Source: Bacillota bacterium
GTDB lineage: Bacteria > Bacillota > Sulfobacillia > JAJZYS01 > JAJYTV01
Length of the DNA stretch: 32,745 nt
Assembly (NCBI GenBank): GCA_021799275.1
Contig: JAJZAT010000033.1
Coordinates: 1-32,745, forward strand
Direction of reading: 5' to 3'
The translations under genes were made by a program, and so were the position numbers. Of this stretch, positions 16,218-29,142 are shown one piece after another. The number at the start of each line of letters is the position of its first letter. The stretch's first letter is position 1. Below the pieces are notes generated by a model that saw only the letters and a program-made list of their open reading frames with translations, did not search any database and had not been told where the DNA came from.

Positions 16218-17074
16218 GTGTCAGCATCCTTTCGTGCCGGCCAGCGCAAGATGCCCTCAAAACTGAACGTGGCCGGCCCCGTCATCAAGACGTGATCATC
16301 CTGTTCCCAGTCGATGTGCAGCACGCCACCTGCGAGTTCGACGTCAGCGCTGCGGCCGCTGCGTCCGGTCCAAGCCGCCGCGACGAGCGTCGCGCAGGCG
16401 CCGGTGCCGCAGGCCAGCGTGCGCCCCGAGCCCCGCTCCCAGACCTCCATGGCGATGCGACCCGGCGACAGCACCCGCGCGAACTCCACGTTCGTGCGCT
16501 GCGGCGCGAAGGCCACGCGCTCGAGCTCGGGGCCGATCCCGAGCGCCAGCTCCTTGAGGTTGCGGTCCTCCTCCGGAAAGCAGACGAGGTGGGGGTTGCC
16601 CATCGAGATGCCGGTGGCCGCGAGACGCTCGCCCCGGATCTCGACCGGGACGTCGCGCAGCACGCCCTGCCCGAGAAAGCCGATCTCGGCCCGCTCGAAG
16701 CGAGGGCTACCCATGTCCACGCGCACCTGCCCGTCCCCGAGCACCTCGCCACGGATCCGTCCGGCGCGGGTGTGCACCGCAAGCGCCCGCGGCGCATAGC
16801 CGCGGGCGTGGCCGTAGCGCATCAGGCAGCGCACCCCGTTGCCGCACATCTCGCCCTCGGAGCCGTCGGCATTGAAGATGCGCATGCGAAGCTCCGACGC
16901 ATCGTCGCCCGGCTCGATCAGGATGACGCCGTCGCTGCCCACGCCCAGGTGCCGGTCCGAGACCGCCTGCGAGAAGCTGGCGAAGTCGATGGTGGCGAGT
17001 TCGGGATGCGCCACCAGGTCGAGGTAGACGTAGTCGTTGCCGAGGCCGTGCATCTTCAGGAACGGGACTTCCAC
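16211..17074 (-). CDS. dapF: Diaminopimelate epimerase
   Basis: A 287-residue cofactor-independent epimerase making meso-diaminopimelate. The start region KMHGLGNDYVYLD is characteristic. The two catalytic cysteines are in GEMCGNGVRC (about 75) and ACGTGACAT (about 228). The frame is open far upstream across the ATPase gene, but GTG at 17074 has GGGAGG 7 bases upstream and gives the normal N terminus, so I chose it. It overlaps the ATPase stop by 19 bases and so was probably transcribed with it; the insertion in the ATPase may therefore affect expression of dapF and dapL. Confidence 0.95.
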   Translation of the reverse strand: MEVPFLKMHGLGNDYVYLDLVAHPELATIDFASFSQAVSDRHLGVGSDGVILIEPGDDASELRMRIFNADGSEGEMCGNGVRCLMRYGHARGYAPRALAVHTRAGRIRGEVLGDGQVRVDMGSPRFERAEIGFLGQGVLRDVPVEIRGERLAATGISMGNPHLVCFPEEDRNLKELALGIGPELERVAFAPQRTNVEFARVLSPGRIAMEVWERGSGRTLACGTGACATLVAAAWTGRSGRSADVELAGGVLHIDWEQDDHVLMTGPATFSFEGILRWPARKDADTW

Positions 17075-18768
17075 ACGGCAGCCTCCCAGGTCGAGCGGCC
17101 ACGGGCTCGGCGCAACAGGCGCCGCCGCGCCGCTATACCGAATGATCCCAGTCCTGAGACTGCCACGACGGCCAGCCAGTTCGCAAGATCCAGAGGTACG
17201 GTGCGGAAGGTCGAAGCGGCCCACGGCGGATAGATGGCCGCCAGCAGGAGGCCGATCGACGAGAGTACCGCGACCAGTAGGTACGGATTCGAGGTCAAGC
17301 CCATTTCCATGATCGAGCGGGTCTCGGAGCGGCAGTCGAAGGAGTGGAAGAGCTGGCTCATCACGAGCGTCGCGAACGTCAGGGTGCGCGCCAGCGGCAG
17401 CCCCGCCCCCAGCAGGAGCGAGACCGTGAACATGCCGAGCGTCGACACGCCGATCAGGACGCCCCGGCTGACGATGCGCCAGCCGAGCCGGCGGGCGAAG
17501 ACGCCCTCGCCCGCCGGCCTCGGCGGACGCTGCAGCGCGTCGGGCTCGACCGGTTCGAGTCCCAGGGCCAGGGCTGGCAGACCGTCCGTGGCGAGGTTCA
17601 CCCAGAGGATCTGGATCGGCAGCAGGGGCAGGGTGAGTCCCGCGATGGCCGCGCCGAACATCACGAGCACCTCGCCCACGTTGCACGCGAGCAGGTAGCG
17701 GACGAACTTGCGCACGTTGTCGTAGATGCCGCGCCCTTCCTCGACGGCCGCGACGATCGTGGCGAAGTTGTCGTCCGCCAGGACCATGTCGGCCGCTTCC
17801 TTGGTGACATCGCAGCCGGCCATGCCCATGGCCACGCCGATGTCGGCCACGCGCAACGCCGGTGCGTCGTTGAGGCCGTCACCGGTCATCGCGACGATCT
17901 CGCCGTTGGCGGAAAGCGCCTCCACGAGCCGCAGCTTGAACTGCGGCGACACGCGCGCGTAGACCGACGTACTCTGGGCGACGCGGCGCAGATCCGGCTC
18001 GGGCAACTGCTCCACGTCGGCGCCCCGGGCCATGCCTTCGCCCTCGCGCAGGATGCCGAGTTCGCGCGCGATCGCCTGCGCCGTGGCGGGGTGATCGCCT
18101 GTCACCATCACGGTGCGGATGCCGGCCCGCCGGCACATCCGCACAGCGTCGCGGACCTCCGCCCGCGGCGGGTCGTAGAGCCCGACGATGCCGAGGAGCG
18201 TCAGTCCCTGATGCTCGCTTGGGTGTGCGACGTCCCTGACGGCCACCGCGAGGGTGCGCAGGCTCTCCTGCCCGAGCCGCACCGTCCTGTCGAGCCACTC
18301 GCGCTTGCGCTCGGCGGTGAGTCCGACATCGCGCCCACCCACGCGCTCGGTGGCGCACATGCGCAGAATGGCCTCCGGCGCGCCCTTCGTGATCTGCACG
18401 AGCCGCTCGCCCCTGCGCACCACCACCGTCATGCGCTGCGCTTCCGAGGAGAACGGCACCTCGAGGATGCGAGGCCGCTCGCGCTCGAGGCGCGAAACAT
18501 CGATGTCCGCCTTGCCGGCGGCGACGATCAGGGCCACTTCCAGCGGGTCGCCCTCGGTGCGCACGCGTTTTTCATCCATGTGCAGTTCGGCGTTCTGGCA
18601 AAGCGCCAGGGCCTCGAGCGCCCCGCGGGCGTCGTCGCCATGGCGGTCGCCGGAAACGCGCAGGATCTGCCCCCTGCGGTCGTAACCGTCGCCGGTCAGG
18701 CGATACTCCGCGTCACCCGTGAGCAGCTTGCGCACCGTCATCTCGTTGCGCGTCAGGGTGCCGGTCTT
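17056..18768 (-). pseudogene. yloB: Ca2+-transporting P-type ATPase, C-terminal part, disrupted by prophage-like insertion
   Basis: The readable part is the C-terminal two thirds of a SERCA-like P-type ATPase. It starts inside the phosphorylation motif: the frame reads AKTGTLTRNEMTVRKLL where the family has DKTGTLT, so the phosphorylated Asp codon and all upstream sequence are lost. Preserved are nucleotide-binding KGAPEAIL, hinge MTGDGLNDAPALR, and six C-terminal membrane helices with the VNLATDGLPALALGLEP cation-site motif. An in-frame TAA lies about 7 codons before the junction, so no fusion is made; an internal ATG at 18741 opens a 561-codon frame but the product could not be phosphorylated. 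By synteny this is the yloB orthologue, a sporulation-expressed Ca2+-ATPase in Bacillus. The N-terminal part should lie beyond the other end of the element, outside the window. Confidence 0.9.
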
Positions 18769-18772
18769 GGCA
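18753..18772. other. Element/host junction (att site) inside the DKTGTLT motif
   Basis: On the minus strand the ATPase codons Lys-Thr-Gly-Thr-Leu-Thr are intact up to 18768. Immediately upstream the expected Ser-Asp codons are replaced by element sequence (Pro-Ala, then a stop). This places a recombination junction at about 18768-18772, directly after the integrase gene. The core dinucleotide cannot be fixed without the other junction. Confidence 0.75.
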
Positions 18773-20351
18773 GGATAATCGGTTTATTCTGGCTCTCTGA
18801 AGCGGGTTCCGGCTTCTTGAAGATGATCTCGACGACACCGTCATCGCGCACGATGATTCTGTCACCCAGCCAGAACTCCAGGAAACTGCGTCGTTCCTTG
18901 AGGGTAGCCTCTTCCCGAAGTACCTGCTTGAGTTCGCGCTGCAACATCCGGAGGTCTTTGATGGTGAAGTCAGATGCCTTCGCTCGGCGCAGTCGGCTTT
19001 CCGTTTCCTGCAGCATAGCTCGGAGTCTCAAGCGCTCTTTCTCGATGGCAGTCTGTTTCTTATCCAAGACAGCGGCCGAGAATCGGCCGGCTAGAATGAG
19101 ATCGAGGAGTTGGGCCTCTTGTCGGTCAACTTCCTTGAGTTGCTTGGTTATCTTGGCGATTTCGTCGCTCGCCTGACGGATCTGAACGTTCTGATCTCCG
19201 TGCTGGCTCGTCGTCAGGTCCAATAGACGACCGGATAAGATGGTGTCTGTCACATGCTGCCACACGAGATTGGTTAAGGCGTCTCCATCCCATCGCGGAG
19301 CATCCAGACATGCGGTTCCATCGCGTAGACGCGCTGTGTTGTACCGCGAGGCACAGACATAGTAGAAGGTGCCCGACCTGGGATCATGTCGTGGCGTGAG
19401 GGTCGCTCCGCACCTTGGGCAGGCCATAAGTCTATCCAGAAGCCGCGTAGCCTCTGCTGGTCGCCCGCCACGCTGATTCGACCGCCGCTGCAGAAGACAC
19501 CGATTCCAAGTTTCTTCGTCGATAAGCGCCGGGTGCGCGTTGGGCATCGCAATCCAATCGCTCTCTCGATGAGTTTTGCTGCGTTTGCCCTTGGAGTGAC
19601 TTCGCTTATTCCAAACAAAGGTGCCCGAATAGACAGGGTTGCGCAGCATGTTGGCGATAGTGGCCGAGTTCCACAGCGTTTGAGGCGCCGGCACGCCGCT
19701 TTGAATTAGCCATTCCATGATGTCCTTGGCACTCATCCCGTCGATGTAGTGCCGAAAGATCAGGCGAACGATGTCCGCCTTGGTGAGGTCCTGCCACCAG
19801 TTGGTATCGTCGGGAACGTAGTGCTCTGTGGTTATATCAACCTTGTATCCGAACGGTACCTTCCCGCCCGTGAATCCGCCTTCCTTGGCCCGATCCCTCT
19901 TGCCACCCAGCGTTCGCAGCAGAATGAGCTTGCGTTCCTTAGCAGCAAAGTTCGCCAGAATTGAAAAGATGAGCTGCCCGTTGTCGTCGGCTAGGTCGAA
20001 CGCTTCAGTAATGCTTTGGAGCTTCACGTTGAGATCCATGAGCCCTTTGACTAGGGGGTATAAGTCCCACGGGTCAGCTCTCGTGAAGCGGTCCACTCTG
20101 GCGATCAGCACCAGGTTGAATCGGCCCGCTTGTGCGTCCCGGATGAGCTCTCTAACCGCCGGGCGGTCCTCAATGGTCGCTCCACTTATCCCGGCGTCCT
20201 GATACACACCTGTTATCTCGACTTCATGTCGGGCGCAGAACTCTCGGAGATCCCTCTCTTGGGCATCCAGGGAGTAGTTGTCCACCTGCGAGGCGCTAGA
20301 CACTCGCGTGTAAAGGGCTGCTCTATCCCGCGCCGCGTTCGTGCCAATCAC
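18753..20351 (-). CDS. Large serine recombinase (site-specific integrase)
   Basis: A 532-residue large serine integrase. The resolvase domain (about 10-150) has YTRVSS with nucleophile Ser18, and RVDRFTR with a conserved Arg pair. A recombinase domain (about 170-290; GGKVPFGY and NPVYSGTFVW) and a zinc ribbon with CPRCG near 320 and a second Cys pair follow, then a coiled-coil region (about 390-490), typical of this family, which binds attP/attB and depends on a directionality factor for excision. Its last five codons and stop lie in the host ATPase sequence. The start GTG at 20351 is the only start after an in-frame TAA; no ideal ribosome site precedes it. Confidence 0.95.
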   Translation of the reverse strand: MIGTNAARDRAALYTRVSSASQVDNYSLDAQERDLREFCARHEVEITGVYQDAGISGATIEDRPAVRELIRDAQAGRFNLVLIARVDRFTRADPWDLYPLVKGLMDLNVKLQSITEAFDLADDNGQLIFSILANFAAKERKLILLRTLGGKRDRAKEGGFTGGKVPFGYKVDITTEHYVPDDTNWWQDLTKADIVRLIFRHYIDGMSAKDIMEWLIQSGVPAPQTLWNSATIANMLRNPVYSGTFVWNKRSHSKGKRSKTHRESDWIAMPNAHPALIDEETWNRCLLQRRSNQRGGRPAEATRLLDRLMACPRCGATLTPRHDPRSGTFYYVCASRYNTARLRDGTACLDAPRWDGDALTNLVWQHVTDTILSGRLLDLTTSQHGDQNVQIRQASDEIAKITKQLKEVDRQEAQLLDLILAGRFSAAVLDKKQTAIEKERLRLRAMLQETESRLRRAKASDFTIKDLRMLQRELKQVLREEATLKERRSFLEFWLGDRIIVRDDGVVEIIFKKPEPASESQNKPIILPRPAP

Positions 20352-20384
20352 TCCCCCAACGGGAGCGGGTTCGTGGTGGATCGC

Positions 20385-20576
20385 TTAGGCTCCTTTTCGG
20401 TTGCCACGGTACTTGTTCAGAAGGTCGACCAGCATCGTGGCCGCCTGCTTCAGGTTAACGGTCGGAGTCGACTCGTCTGGCGGTACCTCGATCACTCGGG
20501 TGGGCTTGAGAATTGGGCTGTGCCCCATCCGCGGGGAAGGGTCCGGCGACGGAAGCCGCTCAGGAATGAACGCCAT
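20385..20576 (-). CDS. Hypothetical small protein upstream of integrase
   Basis: A 63-residue frame starting ATG at 20576 with GGGGAGGG 5 bases upstream. The protein begins with a proline-rich part and ends with a predicted helix (about 38-60, LKQAATMLVDLLNKYRG). I do not recognise a family. It lies 33 bases before the integrase; a directionality-factor role would fit this position but there is no sequence evidence for it. A longer frame to 20687 exists but has no ribosome site. Confidence 0.6.
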   Translation of the reverse strand: MAFIPERLPSPDPSPRMGHSPILKPTRVIEVPPDESTPTVNLKQAATMLVDLLNKYRGNRKGA

Positions 20577-20664
20577 CCCCACCCTCCCCTCTCCACACCC
20601 TATGAACGGACTGCTTGTCCTCTTGCTGACTGCGATCTCACGCTTTCCATGCGTCCAGCGGGCA

Positions 20665-20811
20665 CTAAATCGGCACCCTGACCGCACCGATCAGCACGAG
20701 GACAATCAAGATGAGGACCGCAACCCCCAGCAGACCACCGACGAGGTGAAGGCCCCACCTGATCAAAAGGAACGCGCCGATCGCGGCCACCACGATGAGC
20801 CACCAGGGCAC
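20665..20811 (-). CDS. Hypothetical small membrane protein
   Basis: A 48-residue frame of almost only hydrophobic residues: PWWLIVVAAIGAFLLI (about 2-17) and LLGVAVLILIVLVLIGAV (about 27-44) form two membrane helices separated by a short RWGLHLVGG loop. GTG at 20811 is preceded by AAGGAG at 10 bases. The frame can be extended to a TTG at 20976, but the added part is polar, without a ribosome site. Size and topology resemble phage holins or small superinfection-exclusion proteins; no function can be assigned. Confidence 0.55.
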   Translation of the reverse strand: MPWWLIVVAAIGAFLLIRWGLHLVGGLLGVAVLILIVLVLIGAVRVPI

Positions 20812-20993
20812 GGCAGCATCACTCCTTGTGCGAGCAAACAAGATGGCCCCGCGCACCCGCTCTTCCGGCAGATGCTCGGGGCCGGTTCCATGTCCTCTGC
20901 TTATTGCCGCGGTGCGAAAGTAGACCCGCGGCTCCGACGAGCTAAGAAAGGCCGCCCGCACCTTGCCTTCAGGCAAGAGCGCGGGAGTAACAC

Positions 20994-21284
20994 CTATTCG
21001 GTCTTAGATGTATCTTCTATGGACGGCTGAAGTTGCATGACCAGATCAGAGAGCTCGGCTACCCGTTCAAGGAGATTGTCGCGCTCTCGCATTAGCATGC
21101 GGTTCTTTGTTCGTAGTGTGTCGACCTCGGTGAGCAGCAGCGGCATGACGCCCAAGCATGCGTTTGTGGCCATGGTTCGTTCTTCAGGTGAAGGGTCTCG
21201 AGCGGAAAATTCTTCACGGAAGCCCAATGTTGCCTCGAGCCAGCGTTTCTGGATCCGTGCGGTCGCGTTATCGCTGAGATGCAT
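20994..21284 (-). CDS. Hypothetical coiled-coil protein
   Basis: A 96-residue protein starting ATG at 21284 with the strong ribosome site AGGAGGAAGCAC directly before it. Residues about 48-85 (LLLTEVDTLRTKNRMLMRER onward, then ELSDLVMQL) form a leucine-heptad coiled coil. No recognised family. It is the next minus-strand gene after the S24/S26-like gene. Confidence 0.75.
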   Translation of the reverse strand: MHLSDNATARIQKRWLEATLGFREEFSARDPSPEERTMATNACLGVMPLLLTEVDTLRTKNRMLMRERDNLLERVAELSDLVMQLQPSIEDTSKTE

Positions 21285-21315
21285 GTGCTTCCTCCTGTTG
21301 CTTATCTTTAGTCGG

Positions 21316-21621
21316 TCAGGTGCTGGGCCGGCTAAGCCGACCGAAGATGTGGGACCTCGGGGCCCATCCGTTGAGATGGCCGCGGGCGCTGCCGATCAGA
21401 TAGCCGCGCGGCCCGACTGCGTGGACGAGGTGCAGGTACTCGCGACCCCTCACGCGACAGAGCACGATGTCGCCCTTGCAGACCTCGTCGCTAGACGAGA
21501 TGGGGTTGACTCTCACAATCTGACCGTCTTCCACGAGTCCGCGCATTGAGTGGCCTCGTGGCCGGATCGTAACGCTCGTGCCGGCCTGCAGTTCGGCGAT
21601 CGCGTGGCTGGCCCATCCCAT
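21316..21621 (-). CDS. S24/S26 peptidase-like protein
   Basis: A 101-residue protein with the fold signature of the LexA/signal peptidase clan: TIRPRGHSMRGLVEDGQIVRV holds the nucleophile Ser in the Ser-Met pair, followed by CKGDIVLCRVRG and YLHLVHAVG. Where LexA has the general-base Lys, this protein has His (LVHAV), as in Ser-His signal peptidases. There is no DNA-binding domain and no membrane helix, so it is a lone catalytic domain. ATG at 21621 shares its A with the stop of the upstream SWIM gene (TAATG), so the two are coupled. Substrate unknown. Confidence 0.75.
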   Translation of the reverse strand: MGWASHAIAELQAGTSVTIRPRGHSMRGLVEDGQIVRVNPISSSDEVCKGDIVLCRVRGREYLHLVHAVGPRGYLIGSARGHLNGWAPRSHIFGRLSRPST

Positions 21622-22118
21622 TAGCTGACCCTGCGCTCGATCTCGAGCGCCACTTTGAGATGTTTGCACGGGCGCGTAGCGCCGAAGGTAAATGCAGGGC
21701 ACGAACAAACACCAAGCTTGGTCCATACCTGATAGTCCTGACGTCCGTGGGCGATGTAGTGGCCAGGCTCGACATACTCAAGCCCGACTGCCTCGAACTC
21801 AGGAGGTGCCGGAAGGGTTGACTCTGCCAGGGCGACGGCTGCCTCGTCTTCTCTCGGGATTAGAGAGAGCCGACCAAGCCGCTCGCTGTCGTCCAGCGGG
21901 TAGATCGAGACCTCGACAGATTGGGTTCTGTGCGCCGCGCAGGCATGGATCAGCGAGCCGAGACCGAGCTTGGCGGCATCTTTCTCGAGCAGTGGGCCGT
22001 GTCGTTCGGCGTGTCGCCAGACGAAGAGCCCGGTCGGAGTCCGTAGCCATGCTCCAACAGCAGTGAAGCCGCCGCGGTGTTTTGCCGCGACGGCTCCAGT
22101 CCAGATGCGATTAGCCAT
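21621..22118 (-). CDS. SWIM zinc-finger domain protein
   Basis: A 165-residue protein with a C-terminal SWIM motif: CSCPAFTFGATRPCKHL (C-x-C-x10-C-x-H; about 140-157). Such motifs bind DNA or proteins. The first 60 residues (RIWTGAVAAKHRGGFTAVGAW) form a small beta-rich part; the middle is acidic. ATG at 22118 has AGAAGG about 9 bases upstream. It overlaps the zinc-ribbon gene by 8 bases and is coupled to the S24/S26-like gene through TAATG. The frame to 22211 is an extension without support. Confidence 0.75.
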   Translation of the reverse strand: MANRIWTGAVAAKHRGGFTAVGAWLRTPTGLFVWRHAERHGPLLEKDAAKLGLGSLIHACAAHRTQSVEVSIYPLDDSERLGRLSLIPREDEAAVALAESTLPAPPEFEAVGLEYVEPGHYIAHGRQDYQVWTKLGVCSCPAFTFGATRPCKHLKVALEIERRVS

Positions 22119-22245
22119 TCCTTTTCGCCTTCTGTTTGTTCGTGGATTTCTTTTGCGATGGCAGTTTCTGTCCGCATTCGTAGCAGAACATCGCATCCGC
22201 GTGCCGTGCAACTGTACCGCAGTGAGAGCAGGTTTTGAGGTCCAT
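22111..22245 (-). CDS. Small zinc-ribbon protein
   Basis: A 44-residue frame: CSHC at residues 6-9 and CYEC at 21-24 form a zinc ribbon, followed by a lysine-rich tail (KKSTNKQKAKRNG). ATG at 22245 follows AAAGGAG at 12 bases. It is the first gene of a three-gene overlapping set (zinc ribbon, SWIM, S24/S26-like). Function unknown; nucleic-acid binding is likely from the basic tail. Confidence 0.7.
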   Translation of the reverse strand: MDLKTCSHCGTVARHADAMFCYECGQKLPSQKKSTNKQKAKRNG

Positions 22246-22298
22246 TGTGAAGTATGTCTCCTTTCTTATTTCTTACTGTGAGGCTACTGCACGTAGTA

Positions 22299-23033
22299 TT
22301 AGGGAACAATACCTTTGATTTCGTCGATGGACGGCGTCGGCTGCCAGTTCCATACCGACTCACCACCTGTGATTTCGGGCAGATACTTGCCGTCGATCTT
22401 ATCGGGGCGAACGAATTTTGCGAGGTAGTCGACCTTGCCGTTGCGCTCGACGCGCCAGACGGCTCCTTCCGGTTGGTCGATCGCGCCGTGAAAGCCGTGC
22501 TCGCCAAGGAGATCGAGGGCGTGTTCGATGGAGCAGGGTCCATTGAGGTGCAGGATGTGCGGCGTGATGCAGTACGGTACGACGCGGTACGCGAACTCTT
22601 CGGAGTTGGCGCGCTCTGCGCCGCGCATTAAGTCGAAGACGACGAAGGGTTCGTGCTGCAGCGCGTAGCGGGTGCCGTGGGCCTGAGCCAGCCACTCCCC
22701 CACTACACGTTCGCCGTCCTGGAGCAAGGCGGCGAAGCGCTGCTCGTTGCGGCGGACCCAGTCGGCGAAGAGTTGGTGCTGTTCGTACTTCGAACTCTGG
22801 GCAAGGTAGCCGGCGCGGCCGAGGGCTAGGATGACGCCGTCGACTTTGGCAACGGCGCAGCAGGAGCCGTCCAGTTTCTCGGTCACAATGATGAGGTCGT
22901 GTTTGTCGCGGAGTTTGATGGTACAGATGGTGGCCTGGCCGGGTTCGCAGTGGTGGTCGCCTGCGCCCAGGCGGCTGCCGGGCAGGTGCGGAATGCTACC
23001 GTAAGCCTTGATGCCGAGAGGCTTGTTAGCCAT
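22299..23033 (-). CDS. RNA ligase (Rnl2-type nucleotidyltransferase)
   Basis: A 244-residue ATP-dependent RNA ligase family protein. Nucleotidyltransferase motifs in order: motif I EKLDGS with AMP-accepting Lys53, motif III-like FVVFDLM (about 130), motif IV EGAVWRVER (about 190) and motif V LAKFVRP (about 205). These enzymes seal 3'-OH/5'-phosphate nicks in RNA, in T4 phage to repair cleaved tRNA. It lies about 600 bases from the tRNA array and on the same strand, so tRNA repair is the natural inference. A 5' kinase/3' phosphatase partner is not in the window. A DNA ligase is less likely because of the short length and lack of an OB domain. Confidence 0.87.
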   Translation of the reverse strand: MANKPLGIKAYGSIPHLPGSRLGAGDHHCEPGQATICTIKLRDKHDLIIVTEKLDGSCCAVAKVDGVILALGRAGYLAQSSKYEQHQLFADWVRRNEQRFAALLQDGERVVGEWLAQAHGTRYALQHEPFVVFDLMRGAERANSEEFAYRVVPYCITPHILHLNGPCSIEHALDLLGEHGFHGAIDQPEGAVWRVERNGKVDYLAKFVRPDKIDGKYLPEITGGESVWNWQPTPSIDEIKGIVP

Positions 23034-23099
23034 AGGTCACCTCCAGGAACGAGGAGTGGCGGCACCGCGAGAAGCGATGCCGCCTGGTATGATGCAAGG

Positions 23100-23582
23100 C
23101 TACTTTGTGAACTTGTCTGCTACCGTTGAAGCAGCAAACGACTCTGGTTTGATCTTGGCGTCGAAGCCGCTGCCGACGATCATACCGACCACATCTTTGA
23201 TAACCTCGCTCGTTGGGCCGTGGTAGCCCACATCGAGGTGGATCTCGACGTGATCCAGCCCGAGCCCGAGTCGCGAGAGCTGCTCAGAGAGGCGGCTTGC
23301 GAGCCCGAGTGAGAGCGACGCTTCATAGAGCATGCGCTGTCGCAGGGACTTCATCGGACGCTCGTATTGGGTCTGATAGTAGAAGCGACCGCCCTTGCCG
23401 ATACGGTGGATGACAACCGCGGTGACGAAGCGAATCTCGTCTCGTGTCTTCTGGGAGTCGGTGCCGACGATGAGGTTGTACGCCGTGTCTGGATTCTCAC
23501 GCACGAACGCAAGGACGTCGTGGAACATGGCCTCGAAGTCGAGGTTGCCCTTGGTCGGACTCTTGAACAGCGGACTTTTCAT
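23100..23582 (-). CDS. ykuK: RNase H-like YkuK family protein
   Basis: A 160-residue DUF458/YkuK protein. NPTKGxLxFE-like start (SPTKGNLDFE), NLIVGTDSQ with the first acidic residue of the RNase H fold, FVTAVVIHRIGKGGRFYY, LRQRMLYEASLSLGLASRL and IHLDVGYHGPTSEVI are all in family order. Its biochemical activity is not established to me. YkuK genes are found in Bacillus genomes and phages. Its place between the RNA ligase and the first tRNA gene suggests an RNA-related job, which is inference. ATG at 23582. Confidence 0.88.
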   Translation of the reverse strand: MKSPLFKSPTKGNLDFEAMFHDVLAFVRENPDTAYNLIVGTDSQKTRDEIRFVTAVVIHRIGKGGRFYYQTQYERPMKSLRQRMLYEASLSLGLASRLSEQLSRLGLGLDHVEIHLDVGYHGPTSEVIKDVVGMIVGSGFDAKIKPESFAASTVADKFTK

Positions 23583-23610
23583 CGTCGATCACACCTTCCC
23601 GTTCTGAATT

Positions 23611-23685
23611 TGGTGGGTCTGGCGGGACTCGAACCCGCACCGTGCGGCTTAAAAGACCGCGGCTCTGCCTTCGAGCTACAGACCC
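23611..23685 (-). tRNA. tRNA-Lys(TTT)
   Basis: Full cloverleaf with GGGTCTG/CAGACCC acceptor, encoded CCA and anticodon loop CTTTTAA (U33 normal). It is the 3'-most tRNA of the array in transcription direction, 28 bases after the YkuK gene start. Confidence 0.95.
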
Positions 23686-23690
23686 GAACT

Positions 23691-23778
23691 TGGCGGAAGG
23701 AGTGGGATTCGAACCCACGAGGCGGGATCGCCTACACGCTCTCCGGGCGTGCGCCTTAGACCGCTCGGCCATCCTTCC
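23691..23778 (-). tRNA. tRNA-Ser(GGA), C33 variant
   Basis: Class II tRNA with long variable arm, GGAAGGA/TCCTTCC acceptor, encoded CCA. Anticodon arm CACGC-CCGGAGA-GCGTG: position 33 is C, not U, and 37 is G. Confidence 0.93.
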
Positions 23779-23785
23779 AGTGAGC

Positions 23786-23873
23786 TGGCGGAAGAGGCGG
23801 GATTCGAACCCGCGAGGGGTTGCCCCCTACTGGTTTAGCAAACCAGCGCCTTCGGCCTCTCGGCCACTCCTCC
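23786..23873 (-). tRNA. tRNA-Ser(GCT)
   Basis: Class II tRNA, long variable arm, encoded CCA. Anticodon arm perfectly paired (ACCAG/CTGGT... in the sense strand ctggt complement) with loop TTGCTAA, reading AGC/AGT. U33 normal. Confidence 0.94.
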
Positions 23874-23879
23874 ATGACT

Positions 23880-23967
23880 TGGCGGAAGGGGCGGGGTTCG
23901 AACCTACGAGGACTTGCGCCCCTGCGATTTTCAAAACCGTCGCCATCGACCGCTCGGCCACCCTTCC
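23880..23967 (-). tRNA. tRNA-Ser(TGA)
   Basis: Class II tRNA with encoded CCA. Loop TTTGAAA gives anticodon TGA with U33. The anticodon stem has an outer A-C mismatch and the T stem an A-C mismatch, so pairing is weaker than in neighbours. Confidence 0.85.
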
Positions 23968-23972
23968 AGAAT

Positions 23973-24047
23973 TGGCGCCCCCGGCAGGAGTCGAACCCGC
24001 GCGCTCCGGGTAGAAACCGGATGCTCTGTCCACTGAGCTAGGGGGGC
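23973..24047 (-). tRNA. tRNA-Arg(TCT)
   Basis: Loop TTTCTAC between TCCGG and CCGGA; acceptor GCCCCCC with one C-C mismatch at the inner pair; encoded CCA. Reads AGA/AGG. Confidence 0.92.
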
Positions 24048-24102
24048 GTTTGGCGAAAAGAAACGATGTGTTGCTACCTATCGCGGCATGGCGTCTACAG
24101 TT

Positions 24103-24441
24103 TTATCGTTCCGCACTTTGCATGGGGTCTGCCTTTCGCTTTGCTCGTCTCGCTGCGCGCTCCATCCGCTCCAAGGACCGCTGAATGCGTCTGTGCTTTC
24201 GCCATGTTTGCGGGCGCGGATCGTACCACCACCGGCACCTTGCGGGGTCCCACACGACCCGCAGAAAATATGCTACGTCCTGCACGCTTGCCACAGTTGC
24301 GGGAACGGTCTTCAAACTAGCCAACAACTCTGACTGCCTTTTTGTAATGCGTTCAGGCGAAGCGTGCGCATACATGTCGTCTTGGATCATGTGCGCGTCA
24401 AATCCCAACAGGCCGCGACTTTTCCATGGGTGTTTAGCCAT
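24103..24441 (-). CDS. Hypothetical protein within the tRNA array
   Basis: A 112-residue, basic protein. ATG at 24441 has AAGGAG at 7 bases, a near-ideal site. The C-terminal third (about 85-112, RKHRRIQRSLERMERAARRA) is a strongly basic helix, suggesting nucleic-acid binding; WWYDPRPQTW in the middle is rich in aromatic residues. No family recognised. It separates the first five tRNA genes from the rest, so a polycistronic tRNA/mRNA transcript is likely. Confidence 0.7.
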   Translation of the reverse strand: MAKHPWKSRGLLGFDAHMIQDDMYAHASPERITKRQSELLASLKTVPATVASVQDVAYFLRVVWDPARCRWWYDPRPQTWRKHRRIQRSLERMERAARRAKRKADPMQSAER

Positions 24442-24505
24442 ATCCACGCTCCTTCCACACTCTGCATGGAGTCCGGCGTACGCTTCCGCAGCTTCGAGGC
24501 TTAGG

Positions 24506-24580
24506 TGGAGCGGACAGCGGGACTCGAACCCGCAACCTCCGCCTTGGCAAGGTGGTGCTCTACCGTCGAGCTATGACCGC
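24506..24580 (-). tRNA. tRNA-Gly(GCC)
   Basis: Loop TTGCCAA, stem with one G-T pair, T arm perfect. Acceptor GCGGTCA/TGTCCGC has one T-T mismatch. Encoded CCA, discriminator T. Reads GGC/GGT. Confidence 0.93.
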
Positions 24581-24584
24581 GAAT

Positions 24585-24661
24585 TGGCGCCCCTGGAGGG
24601 ATTCAAACCCCCGACCTGCCGGTTCGAAGCCGGCCGCTCTATTCGACTGAGCTACAGAGGC
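24585..24661 (-). tRNA. tRNA-Arg(TCG)
   Basis: Anticodon arm GCCGG-CTTCGAA-CCGGC, encoded CCA, acceptor paired. The T loop is TTTGAAT: the normally invariant C56 is T, which would weaken the D-T loop contact with G19. Confidence 0.9.
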
Positions 24662-24674
24662 AGAAGATCCCGAC

Positions 24675-24768
24675 TGGCCTGAAGAGTGGGACTCGAACCC
24701 ACGTTTCTGCCCCTAACCATTGATCAAACGGCTGCGAGGCGGTGCCCTATCCACTGGACGATCTTCGA
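24675..24768 (-). tRNA. Atypical tRNA-like gene, anticodon undetermined
   Basis: A perfect T arm (GTGGG/CCCAC), Arg/Asp-like D arm (CAGTGGATAGGGC) and encoded CCA frame 94 bases, but no standard anticodon arm fits at position 27-43. One candidate helix (GCCGT/ATGGT) presents GAT with C37; another weakly paired loop, CTCGCAG, presents CGC. The region before the T arm has CGTTT/AAACG pairing like a long variable arm. The outer two acceptor pairs also do not match. It may be a degenerate gene, a gene with an insertion, or a non-standard tRNA. Confidence 0.5.
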
Positions 24769-24811
24769 GTGCGGTTGCGCACCCGCACTCTGCCAGCCAA
24801 GCTTTGCAAAA

Positions 24812-24892
24812 TGGTCCCGAGGGGAGGACTCGAACCTCCGTGTGGTGTGCCCGGTCTACAGCCAGGCGCAGTCGCCGCTGTGCCACCTCGGG
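24812..24892 (-). tRNA. tRNA-Tyr(GTA)
   Basis: Anticodon loop CTGTAGA in a CCTGG/CCGGG stem with one wobble; encoded CCA; acceptor CCCGAGG/CCTCGGG. At 81 bases the variable arm is shorter than in most bacterial tRNA-Tyr. Confidence 0.92.
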
Positions 24893-24898
24893 AAAACT

Positions 24899-24974
24899 TG
24901 GTAGCGGGGGGCGGATTCGAACCGCCGTTCTCCGGGATATGAACCCGGTGAGATGACCACTTCTCTACCCCGCG
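24899..24974 (-). tRNA. Initiator tRNA-fMet(CAT)
   Basis: The initiator identity elements are visible: first acceptor pair mismatched (C1-T72), A11-T24 in the D stem, and three G-C pairs (GGG/CCC) next to the anticodon loop TTCATAT. Overall sequence is close to bacterial tRNA-fMet starting CGCGGGG. Encoded CCA. From here to 25111 (about 135 bases) I see no gene. Confidence 0.92.
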
Positions 24975-25111
24975 ATATTGACACGCCCCACCTGCGTATC
25001 GCCTCGAGCAACCTTGGTGATCGCGTTTGCCGCTCAAGTCCACTCCCGCCCTAGACGGCCATGCCGACCAAGCACATGACCGCCGGATTCGGAACGGGAT
25101 CTCCCGAAACT

Positions 25112-25188
25112 TGGTAGCAGCGGGTGGCATTGAACCACCGACCTCACGGGTATGGACCGTGCGCTCTGACCGTCTGAGCTACGCTGCC
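25112..25188 (-). tRNA. tRNA-Met(CAT), elongator, C33 variant
   Basis: Anticodon arm CACGG-TCCATAC-CCGTG resembles bacterial elongator tRNA-Met (TTCATAC) but position 33 is C. Acceptor GGCAGCG/CGCTGCT with G1-T72 wobble; encoded CCA. Confidence 0.92.
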
Positions 25189-25195
25189 GGAAACT

Positions 25196-25270
25196 TGGAG
25201 CGGATGACGGGACTCGAACCCGTAACAACCGGCTTGGAGGGCCGATGCTCTACCGTTGAGCTACATCCGC
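25196..25270 (-). tRNA. tRNA-Gly(TCC), C33 variant
   Basis: Anticodon arm TCGGC-CCTCCAA-GCCGG with one wobble; bacterial norm is CTTCCAA, so U33 is replaced by C. Acceptor GCGGATG perfect; encoded CCA, discriminator T. Confidence 0.93.
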
Positions 25271-25272
25271 AT

Positions 25273-25349
25273 TGGTGGTGCCGGGCGGACTCGAACCGCC
25301 GACCTCTCGGTTATCAGCCGAGTGCTCTAGCCAACTGAGCTACGTCACC
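25273..25349 (-). tRNA. tRNA-Ile(GAT)
   Basis: Loop CTGATAA in a perfect CTCGG/CCGAG stem, encoded CCA. Acceptor GGTGACG/CGGCACC has one A-G mismatch. Confidence 0.94.
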
Positions 25350-25351
25350 AT

Positions 25352-25427
25352 TGGTGGGTCGGGCGGGACTTGAACCCGCGACCTCCGGCTTTTCAGACCG
25401 GCGCTCTACCTGCTGAGCTACCTTCCC
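25352..25427 (-). tRNA. tRNA-Phe(GAA)
   Basis: Loop CTGAAAA, T arm perfect, encoded CCA. Acceptor GGGAAGG/CCGACCC has two central mismatches (A-A, A-G). Confidence 0.92.
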
Positions 25428-25428
25428 G

Positions 25429-25513
25429 TGGTGCCGAGAGCGGGACTTGAACCCGCAAGGCCAAGGCCACCGCGTTTTGAGTGCGGCGCGTTTGCCAATT
25501 TCGCCATCTCGGC
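25429..25513 (-). tRNA. tRNA-Leu(CAA)
   Basis: Class II tRNA with long variable arm. Loop CTCAAAA, reading TTG; inner stem pair is A-C. Acceptor GCCGAGA perfect; encoded CCA. It is the only Leu tRNA found in the array. Confidence 0.93.
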
Positions 25514-25534
25514 GTTCAAATATCGCTACCGTAG

Positions 25535-26107
25535 TTAGGCGTGTCGCCTGGCAAGGTTCTTGCCTGCGTACGTTTTTGTTTGACTGTGGCAATTCGGACA
25601 AAGCAGTTCTAGGTTTTCTACCCTGTTGTCGTTGTTCACGCCGTTCTTGTGGTGCAAGTGTAGAGAGATGGGCTTGCCCATCCAGGAACTTAGTCTACAC
25701 TTTGCGCACTTGTACTCGAGAATACAGTCTTCGATCAAACGACGCTTCAGGTTCTGTCTCCCGTTACGGGAGCCGTCCTTCACTAGCATCAGGCGTAACG
25801 CCTTACCCTTACTCCGGTATGTAACTACGTCTCCACGCTTGAGTGCGTCATTCCACGTTTGCCAAGTGAAGCCAAAGCGAATCTTGCACTCTTGGATAGA
25901 GTGCCCTCTGTCGTAGTAGTCTTGAACCTCCTTCCAATTGTATCGAACCTGCTGAGGCACAGGGAGGTGTAAGCGGTGCTTATGGTATGTGACGGTACTT
26001 CGTTTGCAATGCAACTCACTGGCTATCTCACATGTTCGCATGCCAGCCTGTAGCATGGTCCGTATTTGGTCTGCTATGTTTCTGGGACCGCTCGTGGCCA
26101 TAGGCAT
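25535..26107 (-). CDS. HNH endonuclease (homing-type) inside the tRNA array
   Basis: A 190-residue protein. The N-terminal part (about 8-50, IADQIRTMLQAG then CEIASELHCKRSTVTYHKHR) is a helix-turn-helix DNA-binding domain, with a second similar segment at 60-90. The C-terminal HNH domain (about 130-185) has CAKC, HLHHKNGVNNDN with the catalytic His pair, NLELLCPNCHSQT with zinc Cys pair and final His. ATG at 26107 has GGGAG at 6 bases. Free-standing HNH genes of this type in phages act as homing endonucleases that spread to intergenic sites. It interrupts the tRNA array with about 620 bases. Confidence 0.9.
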   Translation of the reverse strand: MPMATSGPRNIADQIRTMLQAGMRTCEIASELHCKRSTVTYHKHRLHLPVPQQVRYNWKEVQDYYDRGHSIQECKIRFGFTWQTWNDALKRGDVVTYRSKGKALRLMLVKDGSRNGRQNLKRRLIEDCILEYKCAKCRLSSWMGKPISLHLHHKNGVNNDNRVENLELLCPNCHSQTKTYAGKNLARRHA

Positions 26108-26129
26108 GGAACACTCCCTGCAGGAAAGA

Positions 26130-26204
26130 TGGTAGAGGCGGCCGGATTCGAACCGACAACCGCTTGTTTGTAGGACAAGGGCTCTACCGTTGAGCTACGC
26201 CTCT
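26130..26204 (-). tRNA. tRNA-Val(TAC), C33 variant
   Basis: Anticodon arm CTTGT-CCTACAA-ACAAG; normal bacterial loop is CTTACAA, so U33 is C. Acceptor AGAGGCG/CGCCTCT perfect; encoded CCA. Confidence 0.94.
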
Positions 26205-26205
26205 A

Positions 26206-26283
26206 TGGCACCCCAGGAGGGATTCGAACCCCCGGCCTCCGCGTCCGTAGCGCGGCGCTCTGCTTCCGCTGAGCTACTGGGGC
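26206..26283 (-). tRNA. tRNA-Arg(ACG)
   Basis: Anticodon arm CCGCG-CTACGGA-CGCGG, encoded CCA, G1-T72 wobble. Decoding of CGC/CGA would need A34-to-inosine editing by TadA of the host. From 26284 to 26394 there is no gene, only a hairpin (AGCCCG/CGGGCT) near 26370-26388. Confidence 0.94.
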
Positions 26284-26394
26284 ATTTGCTGGCGGTCGGT
26301 TCACCACGTCACGCTCCTTGGCTTCCCGACCCTTACCGCGTTGCTACTGGCCAGCAGTCTCATGTACTCAAGCCCGTGAGCGGGCTCAGAAACT

Positions 26395-26470
26395 TGGTAG
26401 CGCCAGCGGGATTCGAACCCGCTCTACCACCTTGAGAGGGTGGCGTCCTTACCGATTAGACTATGGCGCC
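26395..26470 (-). tRNA. tRNA-Glu(CTC)
   Basis: Loop CTCTCAA in a CCACC/GGTGG stem; acceptor GGCGCCA/TGGCGCT with G1-T72; encoded CCA. U33 normal, unlike the Glu(TTC) gene nearby. Confidence 0.94.
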
Positions 26471-26471
26471 A

Positions 26472-26546
26472 TGGTTCGGGGAGCAGGACTCGAACCTGCA
26501 TTCCTGGGTCCAAGGCCCAGTGTGGCTACCGTTGCACCATCCCCGA
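26472..26546 (-). tRNA. tRNA-Gln(TTG), C33 variant
   Basis: Anticodon arm CTGGG-CCTTGGA-CCCAG, position 33 is C. Acceptor TCGGGGA/TCCCCGA perfect; encoded CCA. Confidence 0.93.
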
Positions 26547-26554
26547 ATGAAACT

Positions 26555-26631
26555 TGGTAGGGCGTGCGGGATTTGAACCCGCGATCTGCTCCTTGAAGGG
26601 GAACCGGCTTAAGCCGCTCGCCTAACGCCCC
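26555..26631 (-). tRNA. tRNA-Glu(TTC), C33 variant
   Basis: Anticodon arm GTTCC-CCTTCAA-GGAGC with one wobble; position 33 is C (bacterial norm CTTTCAC). Acceptor GGGGCGT with G1-T72; encoded CCA. From 26632 to 26718 there is no gene; a nested inverted repeat (CAAGGGC/GCCCTTG with inner GCGGC/GCCGC) lies at about 26667-26700. Confidence 0.88.
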
Positions 26632-26718
26632 ACGAAAAGTGGCCGCGCGCTGCCGGTGCGACAAGGGCGGCGAAGCCGCTCGCGAAGCCCTTGCCGCGGA
26701 AGGCGAGCGTGTGGCAAC

Positions 26719-26795
26719 TGGTCTGAGTGGCAGGATTTGAACCTGCGGCCTCCTGCTCCCGAAGCAGGCGCGCTACCAAGCTGCGCTACACCCAG
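26719..26795 (-). tRNA. tRNA-Pro(CGG)
   Basis: Anticodon arm CCTGC-TTCGGGA-GCAGG, T arm perfect, acceptor CTGGGTG with one wobble, encoded CCA. Confidence 0.94.
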
Positions 26796-26801
26796 ATGAA
26801 A

Positions 26802-26877
26802 TGGCGGTGGTGACGGGTTTCGATCCCGTTGCCTCGGCCTTGACAGGACCGCGCTCTCCCGATTGAGCTACACCACC
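26802..26877 (-). tRNA. tRNA-Asp(GTC)
   Basis: Loop CTGTCAA, acceptor GGTGGTG perfect, encoded CCA. T loop is ATCGAAA: T54, which is normally methylated to ribothymidine, is A. Confidence 0.92.
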
Positions 26878-26883
26878 GAAACT

Positions 26884-26958
26884 TGGATGCCCCGGCAGGT
26901 CTCGAACCCGCACCTCCTGGGCCAGAACCAGGCGTGTTACCAATTACACCACGGGGCA
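26884..26958 (-). tRNA. tRNA-Gln(CTG)
   Basis: Anticodon arm CCTGG-TTCTGGC-CCAGG, acceptor TGCCCCG perfect, encoded CCA, discriminator T. U33 normal. Confidence 0.94.
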
Positions 26959-26959
26959 A

Positions 26960-27148
26960 TTACTCGAGCGGAGAGATGAGACCGTGGGCCGCAATGTCCT
27001 GTTTGGATTGCAGGGCCCGAAACCTGAGCGTGACGACGGCCTCGGTCATGTGGATCTGCTCTCGCGGCGTGAGCGCTTCGTTACGCTTGGCCTTTTCGAG
27101 GGCATCTCGCTGTTCTTGGGTTAGGACGTAAGATACGGCGCTCACCAC
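26960..27148 (-). CDS. Hypothetical small protein with LTxEQR motif
   Basis: A 62-residue, mostly helical protein between two tRNA genes. It begins with tandem GTG codons at 27148 and 27145 behind GAAAG; the real start may be either. The segment LTQEQRDALEKAKRNEALT (about 9-27) is similar to the 28-residue protein at 28255-28341. No family recognised. Stop lies one base from tRNA-Gln. Confidence 0.55.
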   Translation of the reverse strand: MVSAVSYVLTQEQRDALEKAKRNEALTPREQIHMTEAVVTLRFRALQSKQDIAAHGLISPLE

Positions 27149-27158
27149 CTTTCGAAAT

Positions 27159-27233
27159 TGGTAGGCTCGGAGGGGATCGAACCCTCGACCCGACGCTTAA
27201 GAGGCGTCCGCTCTACCGCTGAGCTACGAGCCT
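27159..27233 (-). tRNA. tRNA-Lys(CTT)
   Basis: Anticodon arm GACGC-CTCTTAA-GCGTC, acceptor AGGCTCG/CGAGCCT perfect, encoded CCA. Its anticodon arm is identical to that of the truncated tRNA at 28383-28439. Confidence 0.95.
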
Positions 27234-27239
27234 GCAAAC

Positions 27240-27315
27240 TGGTAGAAGTGGCGGGATTCGAACCCGCTTTCCCTTCGCTCCCAAAGCGAATGCGCTTCTG
27301 CTGCGCTACAGCCGA
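27240..27315 (-). tRNA. tRNA-Pro(TGG) with broken acceptor stem
   Basis: T arm, D arm and anticodon arm (TTCGC-TTTGGGA-GCGAA) are intact and CCA is encoded, but the 5' acceptor strand (TCGGCTG) does not pair with the 3' strand (CACTTCT) at the outer two positions and weakly elsewhere. An intact tRNA-Pro(TGG) lies at 28447, so this copy may be decaying. Confidence 0.6.
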
Positions 27316-27321
27316 CGAAAC

Positions 27322-27395
27322 TGGATATGGTAACAGGCATCGAACCCGTGACCTGTCGCTTACAGGGCGGTTGCTCTACCATATGAGGGGTTGTC
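27322..27395 (-). pseudogene. Degenerate tRNA-Thr(TGT)
   Basis: T arm (ACGGG/CCTGT), anticodon loop CCTGTAA (C33) and CCA remain. The D-arm-like part reads CTC-ATATGGTA-GAG, and the 5' acceptor strand no longer matches the 3' strand TACCATA; oddly, the matching TATGGTA lies inside the D loop. The 5' boundary is uncertain. An intact tRNA-Thr(TGT) lies at 28529. Confidence 0.55.
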
Positions 27396-27407
27396 GTCCA
27401 CCGACGC

Positions 27408-27782
27408 TTACTCTTCAGTGAGGAAGGTATCGATGTCCGGCACCAGATCCTTCGCCTTCCGATAGCTCTCAACAAGCATCGCCTCGTCACTGTTCTTCAA
27501 GTGACGGAAGACGAAGAACGCAGGAACGAAGGACACTGGGATGATGAGCAGCAGGCCGATGGTCACGAGGATGCTGAGATCGTTCACGACGAAAGTGTAG
27601 GTGAGGATGGCGCCCGCGGACAGGCCGACGCCAGCAGCGAGGAGATTGTGGAAGAGATTCGCCTGCTGTGCCATATGTTCGTGTGCTAGGCATATAGTCT
27701 CCCATGTCTGCTCTCGCATTTTTCTCTTTTCGGCCTTCATCAGATCGTCGAAATTCATGGCCGTCTCTGGCTCATCTCTCAT
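27408..27782 (-). CDS. Hypothetical two-helix membrane protein
   Basis: A 124-residue protein with a cytoplasmic-looking helical N terminus and two membrane helices (about 57-75, GVGLSAGAILTYTFVV, and 79-101, ILVTIGLLLIIPVSFVPAFF), then a C-terminal helix. No family recognised. ATG at 27782 or, eight codons later, ATG at 27758 could be the start; the frame upstream overlaps the preceding gene and is not supported. It lies directly after another membrane-protein gene. Confidence 0.6.
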   Translation of the reverse strand: MRDEPETAMNFDDLMKAEKRKMREQTWETICLAHEHMAQQANLFHNLLAAGVGLSAGAILTYTFVVNDLSILVTIGLLLIIPVSFVPAFFVFRHLKNSDEAMLVESYRKAKDLVPDIDTFLTEE

Positions 27783-27799
27783 ACAGCGAGATAGAGAGA

Positions 27800-28204
27800 T
27801 CAAAGCCTTCGGGTTCTGGACTGGTGACTTGTATCTTGGAGGGTTTGGGTGGTAGGTGCATTGCCCGGAACTCGGCCGGCTCTTGTGGTTTGCTGCCCTT
27901 TCGCTGCCGCTGTCTTGAGTACCCAGACAAAGAACCCTCCAAAGAGGGCAGCGCCGGGCACCATAGTGGCCAGCGTGAGAAGGTTCCACTCTGCCTGCGG
28001 CAGCCTGCCGAAGGAAAGCACATCCAGCACAGCACTAAATGCGCAGACCACACCGACAATGCCAAAGAACTGTCCCAGTGAGTAGCCGATCGACTCCCCG
28101 TTGGGCGATTCCGCGCGGCCTGCATGATCCACGAGCACCATGCCGGCCGGCATCGCTACCAGCACGCCGAGCCCGATTAGCATCGAAAGTCCTTGTGTGT
28201 CCAC
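27800..28204 (-). CDS. Hypothetical three-helix membrane protein
   Basis: A 134-residue protein. GTG at 28204 has AAGGAG at 7 bases. Three hydrophobic segments are seen: residues about 7-25 (SMLIGLGVLVAMPAGMVLV), 45-63 and 76-96 (LATMVPGAALFGGFFVWVL). The C-terminal 35 residues are polar. No family recognised. The two neighbouring membrane-protein genes form a small pair inside the tRNA array. Confidence 0.65.
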   Translation of the reverse strand: MDTQGLSMLIGLGVLVAMPAGMVLVDHAGRAESPNGESIGYSLGQFFGIVGVVCAFSAVLDVLSFGRLPQAEWNLLTLATMVPGAALFGGFFVWVLKTAAAKGQQTTRAGRVPGNAPTTQTLQDTSHQSRTRRL

Positions 28205-28254
28205 CGTCGCACTCCTTCTGCGTATGATTGTTCTTGGTGAGCGTACGAACTCCT

Positions 28255-28341
28255 TTAGCGGGCGGCTGCTAGAGTAAGCGGTTGGTGCCGCTGGGCCTTA
28301 CGCATAGCGGCACGTTCTTCTCGCGTAAGCAGATCGGTCAT
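28255..28341 (-). CDS. Very small protein with LTxEER motif
   Basis: A 28-residue frame, MTDLLTREERAAMRKAQRHQ onward, with ATG at 28341 preceded by AGGTG at 7 bases. It resembles residues 9-27 of the protein at 26960-27148 (LTxExR-x2-(L/M)-x-KA-x-R-x3-LT), which supports both as real genes. Function unknown. Confidence 0.55.
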   Translation of the reverse strand: MTDLLTREERAAMRKAQRHQPLTLAAAR

Positions 28342-28382
28342 TGTGTGACACCTACCAGTTTTCAGCCTTTGTGAAACCAAGT

Positions 28383-28439
28383 TGGCGACCATTATCCGAC
28401 GCTTAAGAGGCGTCCGCTCTAGCCGTTGAGCTATGGACC
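28383..28439 (-). pseudogene. Truncated tRNA-Lys(CTT) without T arm
   Basis: 5' acceptor strand, D arm (GCTCAACGGCTAGAGC), a perfect anticodon arm GACGC-CTCTTAA-GCGTC and a terminal CCA are present, but the T arm and variable loop are missing. The whole is 57 bases. The simplest reading is an internal deletion of an older tRNA-Lys(CTT). Confidence 0.7.
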
Positions 28440-28446
28440 AGCAAAC

Positions 28447-28521
28447 TGGTCGGAGTGGTTGGGAACGAACCAGCGACCCCCTGGTTCCAAACCAGGTGCG
28501 CTACCGCTGCGCCACACCCCG
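28447..28521 (-). tRNA. tRNA-Pro(TGG)
   Basis: Anticodon arm CCTGG-TTTGGAA-CCAGG perfect, acceptor CGGGGTG with one wobble, encoded CCA. T stem has one C-A mismatch. Confidence 0.93.
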
Positions 28522-28528
28522 ACGAAAT

Positions 28529-28604
28529 TGGAGCCGGTGACAGGCATCGAACCCGTGACCTGCGCATTACAGGTGCGCTGCTCTACCAACTGAGCTACAC
28601 CGGC
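28529..28604 (-). tRNA. tRNA-Thr(TGT), C33 variant
   Basis: Anticodon arm GCGCA-CCTGTAA-TGCGC, U33 replaced by C (norm CTTGTAA). Acceptor GCCGGTG perfect, encoded CCA. Confidence 0.94.
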
Positions 28605-28610
28605 AAACAC

Positions 28611-28686
28611 TGGAGGCCAAGGCCGGCATTGAACCGGCGACCTGCGCGTTACGAATGCGCTGCTCTGCCGTCTGAGCTACTCGGCC
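28611..28686 (-). tRNA. tRNA-Thr(CGT)
   Basis: Anticodon arm GCGCA-TTCGTAA-CGCGC with inner A-C mismatch, acceptor GGCCGAG, encoded CCA. U33 normal. Possibly a duplicate of the Thr(TGT) gene next to it: both D arms and stems are similar. Confidence 0.93.
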
Positions 28687-28689
28687 TTT

Positions 28690-28765
28690 TGGCACGGCGG
28701 CCGGGAGTCGAACCCGGTCGGCGGGATTTGGAGTCCCGCCAGCTTGTCGCGAAGCGTCCCGCCGT
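28690..28765 (-). tRNA. tRNA-Trp(CCA)
   Basis: Anticodon arm CGGGA-CTCCAAA-TCCCG, acceptor ACGGCGG/CCGCCGT perfect, encoded CCA. Confidence 0.93.
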
Positions 28766-28771
28766 ACGAAC

Positions 28772-28846
28772 TGGCTGACCTGGGAGGACTCGAACCTCCA
28801 ACACCTCGGTTAACAGCCGAGTGCTCTACCATTGAGCTACAGGTCA
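28772..28846 (-). tRNA. tRNA-Asn(GTT)
   Basis: Anticodon arm CTCGG-CTGTTAA-CCGAG perfect, acceptor TGACCTG, encoded CCA. From 28847 to 28972 no gene is seen. Confidence 0.95.
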
Positions 28847-28972
28847 GTGAAGTTGTGTCCAGTGCCGCACCCGAGAGTTTCTCACCGCTTCTTCTCTTAA
28901 CCCGTTCTGCAGTTGGGTCATTTGAATCCGCGAGATCCGCCCTCTTCGAAGCGCTTTGCTGCACTGGAACCT

Positions 28973-29050: not shown

Positions 29051-29057
29051 GAAACTT

Positions 29058-29133: not shown

Positions 29134-29142
29134 ATGAAACTT

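Follow-up and report, generated by a model that had tools for sequence, protein, structure and literature searches.

The window, which is the whole 32,745-nucleotide stretch analyzed here, comprises all of contig C49 of its own genome (G000). Its minus strand carries the C-terminal half of a Ca2+-type P-type ATPase (17056..18768), the first codon of which is the Lys of the catalytic DKTGTLT motif. The ATPase frame is open over 17059-18768 from K-T-G-T-L-T onward, and its Pfam matches, Cation_ATPase, Hydrolase and Cation_ATPase_C, are those of a typical Ca2+-type P-type ATPase. It adjoins a gene on the same strand (18753-20351) whose 532-amino acid product is, by its domains, a large serine recombinase (LSR) or phage integrase: Resolvase PF00239, Recombinase PF07508 and Zn_ribbon_recom PF13408 are all present, and the match to the phrog_95 integrase reaches 1e-107. 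Across the junction, GC content shifts from ~0.68-0.72 on the ATPase side to ~0.56-0.62 on the element side. The two genes overlap, as originally noted: the integrase frame crosses the junction (attL) into host DNA, and ATPase bases in a different reading frame supply its final codons and stop.

The integrated element begins at this junction and is known over a left part of ~14 kb (18769..32745), the contig ending within the element. Beyond the integrase gene (int), and likewise on the minus strand, are a small hypothetical ORF adjoining int (20385..20687), a small ORF (20994..21284) resembling one on contig C29 of genome G007, an ORF that by eye is S24/LexA-peptidase-like, with no Pfam or PHROG match (21316..21726; 75% identical counterpart on the same G007 contig), and one that by eye is SWIM-zinc-finger-like, with homologs in related elements (21621..22211). 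Domain matches identify an RNA ligase (PF09414, 22299..23033), an RNase H-like protein (PF04308, 23100..23582), a MazG-like pyrophosphohydrolase (29791..30123), a RecT-type single-strand annealing protein (30853..31797) and, truncated where the contig ends, a RecE/Cas4-like exonuclease (31798..32745). Between the RNase H-like and MazG-like genes is an array of 32 tRNA genes on the minus strand (23611..29218), interspersed with a few ORFs including an HNH endonuclease recognized by its domain (25535..26107, minus strand). The array, unusually large for an integrating element, covers 19 amino acids, with no tRNA-Cys called and one gene without an amino acid call. In G007, the corresponding syntenic segment (L206) has ~1 kb between its RNase H-like and RecT genes, leaving no space for a tRNA array.

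The right end of the element, on the attR side, occupies 1.3 kb of a second G000 contig (C25:1-1350, L069) and contains a sequence with helix-turn-helix (HTH) motifs, here called the tail, and, just inside the element end, a gene for a GIY-YIG/T5orf172-type protein with an N-terminal winged HTH (L069 277-942). Together the two contigs display recombination and nucleotide genes and the tRNA array, the middle of the element lying outside both, and no phage structural genes were found on the 15 kb that they cover. A second, different prophage-like region of G000 (L204, G000:C28:243000-262772, 6952-14153) encodes a tyrosine integrase, a related exonuclease (59% amino acid identity) and RecT-like and SSB proteins.

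The original prediction was that an LSR element had inserted exactly at the DKTGTLT motif, and that an N-terminal ATPase fragment and a second junction should be found at the far end. A search of G000 with the N-terminal half of the ATPase of an intact congener located both on C25 (1343-2338, minus strand), in a fragment 95% identical to the intact congener protein that terminates at ...CTCAGACAAGACAGGA (also given as ...GCTCAGACAAGACAGGACACTCAGTTTATC). In the intact genomes G002 and G005, DNA similar to C25 lies upstream of the ATPase and DNA similar to C49 lies downstream, meeting at the DKTGTLT codons, so the two contigs represent one split locus. Intact relatives carry GACAAGAC at the insertion site; joining the host flanks of C25 and C49 gives TLGSATVICSDKTGTLTRNEMT, with nothing gained or lost, and the joined ATPase halves read ...SDKTGTLTRNEM. 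The split point lies between the catalytic Asp codon and its neighbor (GAC|AA|G). With both junctions in hand and the empty site restored, the predicted insertion is confirmed.

The attL site (18747..18788, minus strand, ~20 nt each side of the dinucleotide AA) consists of the phage arm AATAAACCGATTATCCTGCC and the host arm GACCGGCACCCTGACGCGCA. Alignment of attL and attR, which had been proposed as the way to define the core, leaves AA as the sole common bases, both in G001 (attL CCCCACTAAAACAGG, attR TCCGACAAGACAGG) and in G007 (attL CCCCACTAAGACCGG, attR TCAGACAAAGCAGG). The probable crossover dinucleotide of the window (18767..18768, minus strand) therefore corresponds to the first two bases of the Lys codon AAG that follows the catalytic Asp. 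The attP site of G000 rebuilt from C49 and C25 is AAACCGATTATCCTGCC-AA-GACAGGACACTCAGTTT, one arm from each contig, and shows dyad symmetry about AA at 13 of 17 positions (shuffle p 5e-5). Since the arms come from separate contigs, the dyad independently supports the pairing of C49 with C25. The dyad is also seen in G007 (11/17) and in G001/G006 (9/17). The attB itself has little symmetry, as has been reported for the attB of A118 (PMC3556126). Short att sites, a two-base crossover and a dyad-symmetric attP, as in LSR systems, are all found here, and the attP dyad, together with insertions at the same site in four other species, further backs site-specific integration.

Integration breaks the pump gene of the host. 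Stop checks at both junctions revealed no replacement from the element for either ATPase half: at attL the phage-side frame has a stop five codons upstream of KTGTLT, and at attR stops occur 10 or 25 codons past the crossover. As read from these junctions, both halves are broken in the carrier and unrepaired by phage sequence, and the inactivation foreseen by the original prediction is clear. We considered whether the ATPase is simply decaying and rejected this on dN/dS values, computed between closest relatives, of ~0.07-0.1 in both halves (G000, G001), like those of intact genes. Selection as strong as in intact genes implies that the inserted state is recent, or else reversible or transient in each lineage, and precise excision would be expected to restore ATPase activity. 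The DKTGTLT codons had been thought the most conserved DNA of the gene, but the 42-nt attB window, at rank 268 of 2239 in the gene, is conserved without being at the top.

In G001 (L070, G001:C170; L028, G001:C168), the ATPase next to the crossover is unusually divergent over ~30 nt, with 14 of 30 nt differing from G000 and from G002, as against ~17% elsewhere, and with amino acid changes and unusual codons. The divergence beside the crossover could reflect escape of attB or conversion.

The family sample consists of ten genomes, recorded as 'Bacillota bacterium' MAGs (e.g. DX1.bin73, SKS1.bin49, LSA2.bin86, DBS2-4.bin93). The site is occupied in G000, G001, G006, G007 and G008, representing five species and two genera of one family, and intact in the congeners G002, G004 and G005; G003 and G009 stand outside this tally, their contigs ending near the site. 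Same-site attL junctions are present in G001, G006 and G007, and attR junctions in G001, G006, G007 (two) and G008. The G007 integrase, 60% identical to that of the window, adjoins the same ATPase codon in the same phase; looking for this integrase beside ATPase fragments in other genomes had been proposed as a check. Two attR-ended copies of the ATPase N-terminal region indicate at least two uses of the site in the G007 lineage; they are in tandem (L073, G007:C28:1-20000, 635-1622 and 6919-7907), and the upstream one retains a remnant right end only, with the tail and a 58% identical GIY-YIG-type gene. As judged from these junctions, DKTGTLT is a recurrent LSR attachment site in the family. 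The expectation that it might serve in many hosts holds for two genera of one family, but we found no use of it outside the family.

In G006 an uninterrupted ATPase is followed by a scaffold gap and then by an attR-type phage end, and this combination of empty and occupied site suggests a mixed population. Identical integrase sequence is present at contig ends of G001 and G006, and identical right-end sequence at contig ends of G001 and G007, which is consistent with the same or a nearly identical element residing in species of two genera within one assembly. The same or closely related elements are present in two genera of what appears to be one sampled community. The MAG contigs are fragmented throughout, several ending inside the element, and such material could in principle give rise to an artefact of assembly or binning that fused phage and host contigs. 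We regard this as extremely improbable: the junction base is identical in several genomes, including those with different integrase sequences, both flanks are syntenic with intact genomes, the attP dyad arises from two separate contigs, and G006 has the site both intact and occupied.

The position of the crossover relative to the integrase frame points to an additional consequence of integration. Codons 1-528 of the prophage int are phage-coded; codon 528 ends on the first A of AA, and the remainder (RPAP and TGA) is host DNA. In the reconstructed attP, the frame continues instead as RQDTQFISAEASLPLDPELQPPSFDEVYRLNHEQGMTLKEIAREYGMSWDTVRRMF... to a total of 652 amino acids, this length being a reconstruction from attL and attR, and the reading past the crossover encodes the tail, ~124 residues with two HTH motifs. 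Pfam finds HTH matches in two stretches of the tail, including the resolvase HTH family, and a single-sequence structure model (mean pLDDT 74) has a disordered linker and two three-helix units; a fold search with the tail gave nothing below E 0.001. Full-length tail matches number six in 101 relatives, solely at these attR junctions, and there is no full-length match outside the family among 398 genomes of the phylum. Weak matches in G028, G046 and G064, outside the family, cover just an HTH motif of unrelated proteins and were set aside. A hairpin resembling a terminator lies after the tail in the G007 remnant copy.

The tail is under purifying selection: in the int frame pooled pS is 0.225 and pN 0.041 (pN/pS 0.18), and neither of the remaining frames has a comparable bias. 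The layout could also be that of an ordinary LSR prophage within a host ORF, like Bxb1 in groEL1, if the HTH protein were encoded by a separate gene that merely lies in frame and has its own start. LSRs commonly integrate within ORFs (PMC8092301), and an in-frame TTG at codon 14, present in most tail copies, is a possible start. However, the G008 tail (43% identity), for which the integrase side is missing and the phase relative to Int is set by homology at the crossover, lacks this TTG and has no ATG, GTG or TTG among its first 34 codons, whereas its conserved first HTH region begins before codon 34, so that any start would fall within the HTH. The linker upstream of the HTH is itself coding-like in the int frame (pN/pS 0.30), no stop separates int from the tail in either reconstructed pair (G000 and G007), and the tail is in phase with int in both, even though their left attP arms differ. 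We consider a separate HTH gene improbable.

The best explanation, which we hold to be very likely, is that a temperate-phage-like element has interrupted the ATPase gene and, by integrating, has removed the tail of its own integrase; attP is probably located inside int. The junctions, the precise empty sites, the same-site insertions in multiple species, and a tail frame that is continuous and under purifying selection are direct observations; that the fusion protein exists, is expressed and influences direction is what we infer from them. According to this model, the serine integrase would recombine attP with attB, made up of the DKTGTLT codons in a single P-type ATPase gene, crossing over at AA after the Asp codon. 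In the free (attP) form, int would read through the crossover to encode the 652-amino acid Int with its two-HTH C-terminal tail. Integration would split the ATPase gene and simultaneously detach the tail from int, leaving a prophage enzyme of 532 amino acids in which a few host-coded residues replace the tail, and a tail sequence without a start behind the ATPase N-terminal half. The long form would be the infecting enzyme and the short form, which retains the catalytic, Recombinase and zinc-ribbon domains, the prophage enzyme, full-length Int being regained only upon excision.

Most likely, integration would thereby alter integrase activity and help to make the reaction one-way. Without its DNA-binding tail, the enzyme could be weaker in synapsis or re-integration, which would stabilize lysogeny, and excision could need a directionality factor or an incoming full-length Int, as has been discussed for suicidal integrases (PMC8371274). 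That the enzyme is a self-switching serine integrase, in which cutting off the tail is a built-in directionality control alongside or in place of a separate directionality factor, is a tentative proposal to which we give slightly less than even chances. The effect might alternatively be on expression control, as in integration-dependent immunity (PMC4557955), with the tail serving chiefly in repression, as a degradation signal or in some other regulatory role, so that its removal would alter lysogeny control and not direction. Such systems share the layout, with attP in the gene of a DNA-binding protein and differing viral and prophage C termini (PMC4557955, PMC8092301), and the tail consists of two HTH motifs. 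In the present case, however, the truncated gene is that of the integrase itself, the loss is an entire two-HTH region of ~124 residues as opposed to a short tag, and no repressor was identified. A switch of this kind seems unlikely to us, if less so than a separate HTH gene.

Neither a free phage nor an attP contig in which int and tail form one continuous ORF was found among the named genomes and viral contigs or by attP-arm pattern search; the sole match to the right attP arm as a DNA pattern was an unrelated phage gene. Direct scans of the named genomes and viral contigs returned no close relatives of the integrase, RecT or the HTH tail, and among 50,697 phage records the closest integrase match reaches only ~26% identity. 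A KTGTLT ATPase fragment beside the integrase gene was looked for at ~80 viral loci that encode distant LSRs and at the LSR loci of relatives, and only the G000 and G007 integrases have one. The LSRs of G112, G124 and G128 have ~33% identity, and those ORFs that were read out (G112 and G128) end without a tail.

Serine integrases are widely used tools, and the control of direction is a central open point for them. A natural enzyme with two forms differing only by a tail that the reaction removes would make it possible to test directly whether direction is set by C-terminal extensions, and the choice of attB places a cation pump under an unusual all-or-none switch. LSR prophages have been described within ORFs (PMC8092301). 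In the open-access literature searched, we found no precedent for a P-type ATPase motif as an attachment site, nor for a serine integrase whose own gene contains attP.

The integrase resembles those of the phiC31/Bxb1/A118 type in its Resolvase, Recombinase and zinc-ribbon domains, its short dyad attP and its two-base crossover, and integration into a host ORF is shared with A118 (into comK) and Bxb1 (into groEL1). It differs from them in an attP that would lie inside int, in the loss of a two-HTH tail on integration, and in the use of a P-type ATPase catalytic motif as attB. In mycobacteriophage integration-dependent immunity (BPs gp33), attP is in the gene of a DNA-binding protein, which is shorter in the prophage than in the virus (PMC4557955); those systems truncate a repressor gene and use tyrosine integrases, whereas here the serine integrase itself is truncated. 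The archaeal suicidal tyrosine integrases (SSV1, pTN3, pT26-2) are likewise encoded by a gene that contains the att site and is partitioned by integration, the complete gene existing only in the free form, as would be the case here (PMC8371274). An attP in the integrase gene, a feature of the SSV type, is found in the present element by reconstruction from both junctions. Self-disrupting recombinases have been stated to be exclusively archaeal (PMC8371274), and our model, if true, would extend them from the archaeal tyrosine class to bacterial serine integrases. In contrast to the SSV-type enzymes, the integrase described here is of the serine class and bacterial, and its catalytic and core DNA-binding domains are intact in the prophage, only the C-terminal tail being lost.
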